A stretch of DNA of 52,576 bases. Source: an uncultured Verrucomicrobiota bacterium (GTDB taxonomy: Bacteria; Verrucomicrobiota; Verrucomicrobiia; Chthoniobacterales; JACTMZ01). Position numbers and translations under genes: made by a program. Position 1 is the first letter of the stretch, and the number at the start of each line of letters is the position of its first letter. The notes beneath the pieces were generated by a model. That model was not told the DNA's origin and did not search any database. It worked only from the letters and a program-made list of their open reading frames with translations. Of this stretch, positions 42,391 to 49,432 are shown piece after piece. The stretch is from NCBI GenBank assembly GCA_903934135.1, contig CAIZMQ010000122.1, forward strand, positions 1 to 52,576. The letters are read 5' to 3'.

Positions 42391-42422
42391 GCGGCGCGGT
42401 GGATCTTGTGTCCACCGACCGC
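42391..42422. repeat. REP-like palindromic repeat, solo copy
   Basis: gcggcgcggtggatcttgtgtccaccgaccgc; matches the RAYT-flanking unit. Confidence 0.8.
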
Positions 42423-44610: not shown

Positions 44611-44752
44611 TTTCCCGTCCACGGGGACGAGCCCCGTGGCGCGGGGGACGGTGGTGCGGACCTTGAGGGAAGAGAGGGATGAGACTTGAGTTTGAAACTT
44701 GAGTGAAATGCTGGGCGGCGCGGTGGACCTTGTGTCCACCGACCGCAACAGG
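44611..44752. repeat. Composite REP-like module at the 3' side of the RAYT-like gene
   Basis: Hairpin CCACGGGG-acgag-CCCCGTGG (44619-44639), spacer ttgagggaagagagggatgagacttgagtttgaaacttgagtgaaatgctg, then gggcggcgcGGTGGACcttgtGTCCACCgaccgc (44713-44746). Confidence 0.88.
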
Positions 44753-44756
44753 CGGC

Positions 44757-45560
44757 TCAGCGCCGCCGCACGTGCGCGAGCGGATAGGAGGAAAACGTCC
44801 CCGCGTAAACCCGCGAGTCGAAAAGCAGACACCCCGCCGCACGATTGAGCGCCCCTCGTAGCGCGCCGGCGATCGCGTCCGGCGACTGCGCGGACGGCCC
44901 ACGCACCGCCAGATGCACGTGATCCGGCATCACGGCGAGAGAATGCACCCCCGGCCGCGCCTCCCCCGGGCCGCCCGCCGCCGACAGCTCCGCGCTCCAA
45001 GACCGCACGGCCGCCGTCACCTTGGGCAGAAAATCCTCCCGCCCGATCCGCCAGCGACCGCCGGTCACCGCGACGAGGTGCAGGTTATACCAATAACGGC
45101 CGTGCCCACTGGCCAAGGGCTCGTCGAGATCGACGGCCCCATCCTCCCAGGCTGCCTCCGCCAGCGAGTGGGCGTAGCGCGGATCGGCCAGATCCGCGCG
45201 ATCCAATTGGGTGGCGATGTAGCGGAGCACGACCTCGTGGGTGTTTTCCCCGAGGGAACGCACCGCGACTTTGCGCTGCAGGCCGTGACGCCACCCGGCT
45301 CCGCGCAAGGCATGATCAAGGCGGCCCTTGGCGCGGGCTGCGACGAATTCCGGCGAGGCATTTCCCGGTGCTTCGAAGGTGAACTGGACCAAATCCGGTT
45401 GCCAGCGGTGGGCGAGGCGGCGCAGGCCGTCGGAGGCCCAGGCCGCGTCGAGGGTGGGGAGGAAGTCGTCGCTCGGCTCGGGTGGAAAGGGTTCGTCCTT
45501 CGGCCAGCCTGTCCAGGAATACGCGATGCGGTGGACGAGGTCCGTGCGTCTCGTGCGCAT
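44757..45560 (-). CDS. REP-associated/IS200-like HUH (Y1) transposase family protein (RAYT-like)
   Basis: LAVMPDHVHLAVRG carries the HUH motif; upstream VAARAKGRLDHALR..RKVAVRSLGENTHEVVLRYIATQ and GRYWYNLHLVAV; Tyr-containing C-terminal SRVYAGTFSSYPLAHVR. ATG at 45560. Confidence 0.75.
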   Translation of the reverse strand: MRTRRTDLVHRIAYSWTGWPKDEPFPPEPSDDFLPTLDAAWASDGLRRLAHRWQPDLVQFTFEAPGNASPEFVAARAKGRLDHALRGAGWRHGLQRKVAVRSLGENTHEVVLRYIATQLDRADLADPRYAHSLAEAAWEDGAVDLDEPLASGHGRYWYNLHLVAVTGGRWRIGREDFLPKVTAAVRSWSAELSAAGGPGEARPGVHSLAVMPDHVHLAVRGPSAQSPDAIAGALRGALNRAAGCLLFDSRVYAGTFSSYPLAHVRRR

Positions 45561-45577
45561 AGGCGGACCTTGGCCCT

Positions 45578-45900
45578 CTCCCGTCCACGGGGACAAGCCC
45601 CGTGGCGCGGGGATGGTAGCGGAGTGAGGGGCAGACCAACGGCGAGCTCCGGGCGGCGCGGTGGACCGTGAGGGAAGAGAGGGATGAGACTTGAGTTTGA
45701 AACTTGAGTGAAATGCTGGACGGCGCGGTGGACCTTGAGGGAGGAGAGGGGATGAGACTTGAGCTGTGTGGGCGGTGGGCTCTGCTCCGGGCGGCGCGGT
45801 GGACCTTGAGGGAGGAGAGGGGATTGGGACTTGAGCCGTGTGGGCGGCGGGCTCTGCTCCGGGCGGCGCGGTGGACCTTGTGTCCACCGACCGCAACGGG
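45578..45900. repeat. Composite REP-like module expanded into a ~70-bp tandem array at the 5' side of the RAYT-like gene
   Basis: Hairpin CCACGGGG-acaag-CCCCGTGG (45585-45605); gggcggcgcggtggacc-like unit starts near 45651, 45719, 45789 and 45861; the last has the full GGTGGACcttgtGTCCACCgaccgc palindrome. Confidence 0.88.
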
Positions 45901-46131: not shown

Positions 46132-46794
46132 ATGAAAAAACTCCTCCTTGCGGCGGCTGTGATGGCTGCTGCCTTTGTATTGGCATCTAACAGTGTTCAG
46201 GCCGCCAGTGGCATCTATGGCGGTTACGTCACGATTGGTGGAATAAAATACAAATCCAGCTCCACATATGCCGGCTCTGAACCTACCTTGGGAGCAACGT
46301 CATTGGGAAGCTTCGCCATAGGCGGCAATCTTGTGCTTTCTGCTGCCGAAACTTTGGCATTTCAAGACGGCGGCAGTTCTACTTTCGCGGGAGCTTTAGC
46401 TTATCGGGTTCGTTTATCTACAGCCCCCAAGTCGACCAATCCGAGTGATTACACCTTTCAGGACATGGGCAATGGCGTTAGTATAGGTGGTAACAACAGA
46501 AAATTTGATTTTTCCGGTGGATCCTTCAATTTGCTAAGTGGATATAGCCCCGCATCCCCCACAGATTACAGCATCGATATCGTGCATAAAATCGGGGCCA
46601 ACGATGGCGGTGGCGGTTCCAACTTCGAGTGGTTGGCCAATCTCAACAGCACGCAACCCGGCAACACAACTTGGGGAGCTATCAATGCCTTCACCGCCAC
46701 GTACACCGTTGTCCCTGAGCCCTCGACCTATGCACTGCTTGGTTTAGGAGCAATTGCCATCTTTAGTTATGCCGTGCGTCGTCGTAAGTCATGA
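46132..46794 (+). CDS. PEP-CTERM protein
   Basis: Signal peptide MKKLLLAAAVMAAAFVLASNSVQA; C-terminus VPEPSTYALLGLGAIAIFSYAVRRRKS. Confidence 0.92.
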   Translation: MKKLLLAAAVMAAAFVLASNSVQAASGIYGGYVTIGGIKYKSSSTYAGSEPTLGATSLGSFAIGGNLVLSAAETLAFQDGGSSTFAGALAYRVRLSTAPKSTNPSDYTFQDMGNGVSIGGNNRKFDFSGGSFNLLSGYSPASPTDYSIDIVHKIGANDGGGGSNFEWLANLNSTQPGNTTWGAINAFTATYTVVPEPSTYALLGLGAIAIFSYAVRRRKS

Positions 46795-46909: not shown

Positions 46910-47860
46910 TTATTCGCCGCTCCTGATGGTTTTCTCCTCAGTAATTTCCTCGAGCATTTCTTGCGCCTGAATTTGCCCGCCTTCGGCCGCCTTCTTGAGC
47001 CACTTGATTCCCTCGCTGCGACCGTGCTCACCAAAACTTTTGCCTCGAAGGTAGAGAGTGGCGAGTGCGAATTGGAATTCAACGTTTCCGGCTTTTGCTA
47101 GGGGTAGCGTCATTTCGGCGGCCTTTTCCTCGTTTTTCTCCAGCCCATAATCGCCGTGTGCGGTGGCCCCAGCCAAGAAAAACAGCGCCTCAGAATACCC
47201 CTCATTCGCCGCGCTGGTGAGCCAGGACATAACTTCCGAATTTACTTCAGGTTCTTCCTCGTTGCTCAAAACTGCTAACGCCAAGGAGTATTTAATTGGG
47301 TTACTGCCTTGCGCGGCAGCCGTGCGGGCCCAAGCCAAAGCTGCGTCTCGGTCGACAGGTGTCCCCCGCCCTTCGAAATACATCATGGCCAATTCGAACT
47401 GCGCCTCGGCGAATCCCAACTCCGCCGCGCGTTTCATCTGCCCGAAAGCATTAAGGTTGGACTGCTCGACGGCAACTCCGGTCGCGCTGAGAGTGGCCAG
47501 AAGATAGATCGCTTCGGCGTCATCCTGCTCCGCCGCTTGGCGCAAGAGCTCGACCCCGCGCTGCTGGAGCTGTGTGTCTTCGATGTTTGTCACATAGGCT
47601 TTTCCCAACTTTGTCTGGGCCCAAGCTTCGCCGCGCGTGGCGGCGTCGGCATATTCGGATTCCAAGCGGGTCGACAAGCGCTCGATTTGCCGCATCTCCG
47701 GCCGCGACAAATCCACGGGTGCTTTTTCCGGGGCCAGGCGTTCGCCGGAGAGGGTCACTCCCGCCGGTTTGGTCGAGAGGCCCGGATCGGTCTGGGCTGG
47801 GCCGGTCGCCACGTTGGCCAGGAGGAAAGCCGCCCCGCAAACCGCATGTCTCTTCTTCAT
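46910..47860 (-). CDS. Secreted Sel1-like repeat protein
   Basis: MKRAAELGFAEAQFELAMMYFEGRGTPVDRDAALAWARTAAAQG, WLKKAAEGGQIQAQEML; N-terminal signal peptide. Confidence 0.9.
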   Translation of the reverse strand: MKKRHAVCGAAFLLANVATGPAQTDPGLSTKPAGVTLSGERLAPEKAPVDLSRPEMRQIERLSTRLESEYADAATRGEAWAQTKLGKAYVTNIEDTQLQQRGVELLRQAAEQDDAEAIYLLATLSATGVAVEQSNLNAFGQMKRAAELGFAEAQFELAMMYFEGRGTPVDRDAALAWARTAAAQGSNPIKYSLALAVLSNEEEPEVNSEVMSWLTSAANEGYSEALFFLAGATAHGDYGLEKNEEKAAEMTLPLAKAGNVEFQFALATLYLRGKSFGEHGRSEGIKWLKKAAEGGQIQAQEMLEEITEEKTIRSGE

Positions 47861-48108: not shown

Positions 48109-49263
48109 TCAGTAGATCAATCCGATCGACGCGGTGTAGGCGTGAAGGAAATTGCGGCCGGCCACGGGACCGATTTCGCCGTTGCAGAAGAAGCCGGCGG
48201 AGGGGAGGGGTCCGAGTGCCTCCGCGACGACCCGGGCGTCATGGTCGGGGCTGCCGAAAAGATTTTTGCCCCGGCCGTTGCAGCAGAAGAGAAGCGAGGC
48301 GACCGGTTTTTCGGCCCGCCGGGCGAGGGGGGCAAGGAGGGCTTTGAGTTCTTCGTCCGCGCTGACCGCATCGCGCAACTGGTATTGCAAGGTCTGCCCG
48401 GTGCGCGGATGCGCGCCGACCACCACCGCGCCGGTGGCGGGATCGGCCCCGAGGATGTTGCGCACCAAAAAATCACCGCGGGCGAATTTCTCTTTGTATT
48501 CGTCGACGACCAAACCGGCGAAAAGATTGCCGCGGGCGCGTTGTTTGTCCGCCTCGGCCAGCGTGTTGAAAGCCTGCTCAAGCACCTGATAAGCGGGGCG
48601 GGAGCCGAGTTCATAGAGGAGATGTTCTTCCGCCCGGGTAACCGGCAGGGCCTCGCCGATCGGACGGCATCCTTGGCTGACCACCGTTTCGATCCGCACG
48701 CCGTCCAGGGCGATGGCGAGGGCATCGGAGGTGTCGCCAATGGCCGGACCGAAAACGGTCACGTCCTCGTCCCCGCGGGGTCCGCCGGCCAGGCCGCCGA
48801 GGACGGGGGCGCCGGGGAAGGCGAGGTTCCATTCGCGCAGCCAGGTGTCGGCGTCGAAGCGGAACGGATTGGCCAGAAAGAGCCAAGCTTGAGCCGGACC
48901 GCCGGCCGCTTCATGCCAAAACGAGTCGCCCTGCGAGGTCTCGACCTGGGCTTGGGAAAGTGGGACGGCGCGGACTTTTGCCTCCGGCAGATGAAGAAAA
49001 AGAAGGGAGAACCCCTCGGTCGTCTCGCCTTCGCAGGACGTGCCAATCAGACCGGAACCGGTGCAACCGGCGAGAAAGGGAACATGGCCATGCACCGCGA
49101 CGATCTCTTGGAATTCGGCCAGGTGGGGGGTGTAGCCGGCCGAGAGGAAAGCCAAGGCCAGGGTCGGGGCTCCGCCCAATTCCGCCCGCATTTCTTCCGC
49201 GGCCGTGCGCACGCGTGATTCGTCGAACGCGTGCAAAACAAGGCGGGAGACGGCACGGTTCAT
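48109..49263 (-). CDS. FIST N/C sensory-domain protein
   Basis: FLAGCTGSGLIGTSCEGETTEGFSLLFL, VLGGLAGGP, VSQGCRPIGEALPVTRAE, GRGKNLFGSPDHDARVVAEALGPLPSAGFFCNGEIGPVAGRNFLHAYTASIGLI. Start may be 49356. Confidence 0.88.
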   Translation of the reverse strand: MNRAVSRLVLHAFDESRVRTAAEEMRAELGGAPTLALAFLSAGYTPHLAEFQEIVAVHGHVPFLAGCTGSGLIGTSCEGETTEGFSLLFLHLPEAKVRAVPLSQAQVETSQGDSFWHEAAGGPAQAWLFLANPFRFDADTWLREWNLAFPGAPVLGGLAGGPRGDEDVTVFGPAIGDTSDALAIALDGVRIETVVSQGCRPIGEALPVTRAEEHLLYELGSRPAYQVLEQAFNTLAEADKQRARGNLFAGLVVDEYKEKFARGDFLVRNILGADPATGAVVVGAHPRTGQTLQYQLRDAVSADEELKALLAPLARRAEKPVASLLFCCNGRGKNLFGSPDHDARVVAEALGPLPSAGFFCNGEIGPVAGRNFLHAYTASIGLIY

Positions 49264-49432
49264 CAATGGGGAAAGATCCCCGCTGCTGGGCAGCAGGTCA
49301 AATGAAGGTTTTTGGTTTATTTGCGGCGTTTTTGGTTGAACATCTGCGTCTTCCAACCTGTCGAAGGAAGAGGTTGAAAAATTTTCGTGTCGGGCTTCAT
49401 TGACAGATCAACCAACTTTCTTCCCTTCTCCC

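Follow-up and report, generated by a model that had tools for sequence, protein, structure and literature searches.

A two-module Y1 transposase-like protein of Verrucomicrobiota, probably a single-chain pseudo-dimer, and its flanking REP-like hairpins

On a contig of an uncultured Verrucomicrobiota bacterium, a gene resembling a HUH transposase lies between two copies of a palindromic module, which raises the question of what kind of enzyme it encodes and what ties it to the hairpins on either side. The window, that is the whole stretch of DNA analysed here, comprises 52,576 nucleotides (GenBank assembly GCA_903934135.1, contig CAIZMQ010000122.1). The gene occupies 44757..45560 on the minus strand (ATG at 45558-45560, stop at 44757-44759) and encodes a two-module Y1 transposase-like protein of 267 aa. 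The original prediction was that of a RAYT with an HVH (HUH) motif, a long extra N-terminal half and two types of flanking hairpin, representing a poorly described lineage. Searches turned up relatives in Chthoniobacterales, Planctomycetaceae, Lentisphaerae and one further verrucomicrobial genome; of 394 Verrucomicrobiota genomes, 38 have family matches at E <= 1e-3, about 26 of them strong. The viral contigs, phages and plasmids searched contained no relative.

The HUH motif is real: D213-H214-V215-H216 (44913..44924, minus strand) lies in a C-module (residues 151-267; 44760..45110, minus) that corresponds to a Y1 domain ending before the tyrosine helix. The extra N-terminal half precedes the HUH region as described but has an explanation, since this N-module (residues 1-150; 45111..45560, minus) is, judged from its alignments, a second Y1 domain that has lost its HUH and bears the sole canonical tyrosine helix. 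The spot aligned with HVH reads L57-V58-Q59 (45384..45392, minus), with HUH absent in 28 of 28 covering sequences. Further on, Y114 and Q118 form a Y-x3-Q motif (45207..45221, minus) and are predicted to serve as catalytic tyrosine and as third ligand of the metal. This tyrosine and glutamine are retained, together with H214 and H216, in all 29 aligned sequences, none of which has an HUH in the N-module. The tyrosine motif sits 100 residues before the HUH, in a separate Y1 domain, and the family departs from the usual Y1_Tnp order, in which one domain has the HUH and, after it, the catalytic tyrosine helix. Invariant columns in the alignment of 23 are K78, G79, R80, R96, G104, V111, Y114, Q118 and D126, followed by Y156, H161, V163, V165, R169, D213, H214, H216 and P227.

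Profile comparisons were made for the whole protein and for the separate modules. The protein matched PF01797 (Y1_Tnp) above the curated cut-off (24.1 bits, cut-off 23), as had been anticipated, with the match confined to the HUH surroundings (residues 205-238), and 23 of 23 alignment members matched at E <= 0.01. At E 0.001 the gene was missed when its entire genome was searched with Y1_Tnp, although the protein scan caught it; simple HMM surveys could therefore pass over the family. Taken alone, the N-modules of all eight tested relatives matched PF01797 through its last profile position, two of the eight coming from no close relative of the window's protein (E 4e-8 to 2e-3; 3 of 8 above the gathering score). 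By means of hhalign, the N-module matched the IS200 TnpA profile with E 5e-7, placing V58-Q59 over the HUH and Y114/Q118 over the catalytic Y and Q; the C-module matched with E 1e-19 in an alignment that ends before the tyrosine helix. IS608 TnpA, of known structure, aligns to positions 22-120 of the family profile, which is the N-module (E 0.001), and Y114/Q118 correspond to its Y127/Q131 by alignment. Single-domain TnpAs match the family model as two pieces in inverted order, the HUH part to the C-module and the tyrosine tail to the N-module. Direct comparison of N- and C-module gave a weak match (probability 2.8%, E 0.006), so the homology of the two modules is argued from their separate matches to IS200.

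The predicted structure shows a duplicated b-a-b-b-a-b fold in two successive units, with IS200 TnpAs as best PDB matches, which bears out the expected HUH fold at modest model confidence (pLDDT 71, pTM 0.65). A second model, of another family member, is weaker (65 and 0.52) and has the same b-a-b-b-a-b topology. The two-module architecture is well supported. In IS608 dimers each trans site takes Tyr127 and Gln131 from one subunit and His64/His66 from the other (PMC5934647, PMC6006769). The conserved residues suggest that the present family likely has one active site of this kind, built across both modules, in which Y114/Q118 would meet H214/H216 in space.

Counted against such a composite site is the nearly invariant C-module tyrosine Y259. 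The C-module could be the whole enzyme, using its own Y259 or the nearly invariant Y252 in cis, with the N-module only holding DNA or shape; it is also the closer of the two to canonical TnpA, and the TnpA-REP of E. coli has been described as monomeric (PMC6006769). However, Y259 lies 43 residues past the second His, as compared to 61 in IS608, and has no Q or N four residues on. Furthermore, Y114 and Q118 are invariant across all three subfamilies. In subfamilies 1 (the window and 22 others) and 2 (L055-L058), only the C-module carries the HUH and only the N-module the tyrosine helix, while subfamily 3 (L059-L061) retains a C-terminal tyrosine helix in which W replaces the metal-binding Q. 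We therefore regard a self-sufficient C-module as unlikely.

The modules that bracket the gene contain two hairpins each. Hairpin A, with arms CCACGGGG-loop-CCCCGTGG, is found at 44619..44639 (loop CTCGT in gene orientation) and at 45585..45605 (loop CTTGT), both as reverse REPs; the second lies 24 bp upstream of the ATG, close to the predicted 25. The exact CCACGGGG/CCCCGTGG hairpin, with its stem of 8 bp, occurs twice in the window, with 0.03 expected, so both predicted copies stand. Hairpin B, with arms CGGTGGAC-loop-GTCCACCG and the palindrome GGTGGAC-CTTGT-GTCCACC, is found in both modules as a forward REP, at 44721..44741 (palindrome 44722-44740; lower stem and bulge extend the element to about 44715-44746) and at 45869..45889 (palindrome 45870-45888), each with loop ACAAG in gene orientation. 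An extra copy with one mismatch lies at 42397..42417 (palindrome 42398-42416), upstream of a TPR-type gene. With at most two mismatches, palindrome B occurs three times in the window, with 0.31 expected; the counts of both hairpins are beyond chance. Read in gene orientation the loops are ACAAG for B and CTTGT or CTCGT for A; the supposed two types are thus a single class of hairpin, with A and B facing opposite ways.

As predicted, both module copies are in direct orientation; however, the upstream copy is stretched, with about 265 nt from hairpin to hairpin versus about 82 in the other, and three half-palindromes GGCGCGGTGGACC fill the stretch (45655..45810, starting at about 45655, 45722 and 45793). 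The predicted shared spacer also exists, with 97% identity over 75 nt. The palindrome next to the stop codon lies 16 bp from it rather than about 10. A spacer motif, GACTTGAGTTTGAAACTTGAGTG (44683-44705 and 45688-45710), has partial copies at about nine other places in the genome without hairpins. It was considered as part of the REP and rejected because of this recurrence; it is a separate short dispersed motif.

Hairpins of the same class accompany the family. Across Verrucomicrobiota, hairpins that combine an 8-bp stem with an (A)CAAG loop and a 3' bulge flank the gene in the majority of relatives, and the repeats are in this sense related to the gene family throughout the phylum, as the original prediction implied. 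In the surroundings of 30 family genes, 72 hairpins with CAAG/CTTG loops lie within 500 bp (27.2 kb) versus 5 farther off (125.4 kb), while hairpins with other loops number 30 near and 115 far at the same loci, at much the same density. Because the loop class first came to light in these very flanks and the loci from Chthoniobacterales are closely related, P values should be taken as nominal; the association of hairpin and gene rests more firmly on the other-loop control and on covariation. The covariation score of 34 non-redundant hairpins is 0.643, versus 0.174 +/- 0.021 when shuffled and at most 0.154 when slid, and 90.9% of cells in this alignment pair. Compensatory changes occur in 10 of 12 base pairs, three of them in the lower stem, which was not used in hairpin selection although its register was chosen from the same sequences. 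The consensus comprises a foot near (A)TCTTnnGCT, a 4-bp lower stem, a one-nucleotide 3' bulge, an 8-bp upper stem and the loop (A/G)CAAG. The nearest hairpins on each side tend to point their feet at the gene (29 of 39).

Copy number differs between genomes. The hairpin core GGGACAAGCCC outnumbers its reversed control by 7 or more in 11 of the 26 genomes that carry the gene versus 11 of 368 non-carriers, with a cut-off chosen after the data were seen and a tally made by hand. Carrier G188 has 48 copies, 22 of which form 11 pairs spaced 76-143 bp, all 11 in -/+ orientation; the pairs share a unit of about 37 nt that is also found beside the gene. Inverted REP pairs of this kind constitute the REPIN layout (PMC3116915), and the G188 pairs are a REPIN-like dispersal. 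Core counts suggest dispersal in G068 and G218 as well. In the window's own genome, for which a REP count had been proposed, hairpins hardly occur outside the locus apart from one degenerate tandem array, so that recent mobility in this genome would be conjecture. This array of degenerate B hairpins has a period of about 101 bp (L004 1480-1810, G000:C40; also G405:C59), and no match to the window's transposase was found near it. Two other genomes are rich in the core, G297 (127 versus 15 in the control) and G292 (15 versus 0). Searches for the family gene found none in either, which counts against a strict link of hairpin and gene; it may have been lost, be missing from the assembly or be too divergent.

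The gene might encode a domesticated, non-catalytic hairpin binder, for instance a regulator or nucleoid protein. It is single copy in its own genome, syntenic and apparently vertically inherited within the genus, and it is under purifying selection: dN/dS against relatives is 0.13-0.24 with both modules alike constrained, hence the whole two-module protein is maintained. Against mere binding stand the catalytic and metal-binding residues, none of which has been lost and which occur just once each in the subfamily of the window, and the ordered hairpin pairs dispersed in G188, so that we find domestication quite improbable. Simple tandem duplication, or another enzyme, could have produced the modules with the gene as bystander; in favour are the scarcity of hairpins outside the locus in the host genome and the resemblance of the half-palindromes to slippage products. 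Yet most relatives, from different taxonomic families, have hairpins of this one class beside the gene, and carriers show the core excess (with its post hoc threshold and hand tally), which makes a bystander role very improbable. An ordinary RAYT/TnpA-REP with its REPs, as originally proposed from the REPtron-like layout and the Y1/HUH domain, can practically be dismissed, since the motif is Y-x3-Q and not Y-x3-NP, no GT[AG]G foot was observed, the tyrosine precedes the HUH, there are two Y1 domains and the nearest structures are IS200 TnpAs.

Taken as a whole, a single-chain asymmetric IS200-type pseudo-dimer acting on the flanking hairpins is probably the best explanation. Two Y1 domains are fused in one polypeptide, of which the second would give the metal-binding HUH and the first the nucleophilic Y114 and third metal ligand Q118; each polypeptide would thus hold one composite site, the single-chain counterpart of the IS608 dimer trans site. 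The enzyme would most likely bind the flanking hairpins as folded single-stranded DNA, recognising the 8-bp stem, (A)CAAG loop, 3' bulge and pyrimidine-rich 5' foot. It would cut near the hairpin foot via a 5'-phosphotyrosine link and join ends, whereby inverted hairpin pairs, at times enclosing the gene, would be copied, moved or lost; cleavage by the protein and enzyme-driven mobility are our inference. With somewhat less assurance we favour an evolutionary reading in which fusion and complementary loss made the symmetric two-site IS200 dimer a single chain with one composite site and its own (A)CAAG-loop REP/REPIN class, a second independent origin, outside RAYT, of the partnership between REPs and a transposase. 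The locus is best read as a REPtron-like, previously undescribed lineage built on a single-chain asymmetric transposase, and the predicted poorly described lineage, with a Y1/HUH protein bracketed by REP-like modules, is to that extent borne out.

Among known systems, the family shares with IS608/ISDra2 TnpA (IS200/IS605, TnpA-Y1 class 1) the Y1 fold, HUH, Y-x3-Q and bulged terminal DNA hairpins, and the IS608 dimer trans site would correspond to its putative composite site. Unlike these homodimers of about 150 aa, it has 267 aa, two fused half-site modules with presumably one site instead of two, a TnpB-free neighbourhood and REP-like flanks; the multiple near-identical copies of class 1 are absent, a single copy being accompanied by hairpins as REP-like modules. 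With RAYT/TnpA-REP (class 2, e.g. E. coli subclass 2.2) it has in common the REPtron-like layout, low gene copy number and inverted pairs of hairpins scattered through a carrier genome, while RAYTs have a single Y1 domain and the family foot is CTTnnGCT-like. TnpA-Y1 class 3, found in Planctomycetes among others (PMC6006769), likewise has a Q-type tyrosine motif and atypical flanking hairpins; going by the class description (Quentin et al. 2018; median 178 aa, NHVH, Y-x4-Q, foot CnGA) the family is set apart by its length, DHVH, Y-x3-Q and foot near CTTnnGCT. CGTC-tagged REPs without known transposase (Di Nocera et al. 2013, PMC3733652) are similar in their 8-9 bp stem, 4-5 nt loop and inverted pairs, but, compared by stem and foot, their stems almost always start A-T with foot CGTC whereas those of the family start C-G. 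A survey of Y1 proteins (PMC6006769) places tyrosine motifs downstream of the HUH and contains no mention of a fusion of two domains. Provisionally, no precedent for such a fusion was found in the open PMC literature. A natural fusion with residues for one composite site offers a direct test of the need for two sites and touches on the path from a symmetric excising transposase to a repeat-spreading enzyme. If true, our reading would link a transposase with a class of hairpins that lack the GTAG foot and add a second evolutionary route to REPINs.

Within the genus the gene is present in 4 of 11 genomes, and the same TPR-type gene adjoins it in 4 of 4. Genomes G404 (L105, G404:C137) and G403 (L108, G403:C55) are sister genomes that have the TPR-type gene with a single hairpin module at the corresponding site and no transposase gene; the G404 genome is 88% complete, with the site itself assembled. 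Since G404 is nested inside the gene-bearing clade of the TPR tree (support 95/94), gene loss that left one module is the simplest reading for G404. Either the enzyme or ordinary recombination between module copies could have caused this loss.

Neighbouring genes, assigned by eye, encode a PEP-CTERM-type (46132-46794), a Sel1-repeat-like (46910-47860) and a FIST-like protein (48109-49356); TnpB is not among them. L024 and L025 were considered as two copies in one genome and rejected as such: a PEP-CTERM-type gene lies upstream of both, and L025 shares a Sel1-like gene with the window, which makes L025 a probable strain variant of the L024 locus and not a transposed copy. In L026 (3985-4010), provided that translation starts at the upstream ATG, the B palindrome falls within the opening codons of the transposase gene (AGGHKVHRI).
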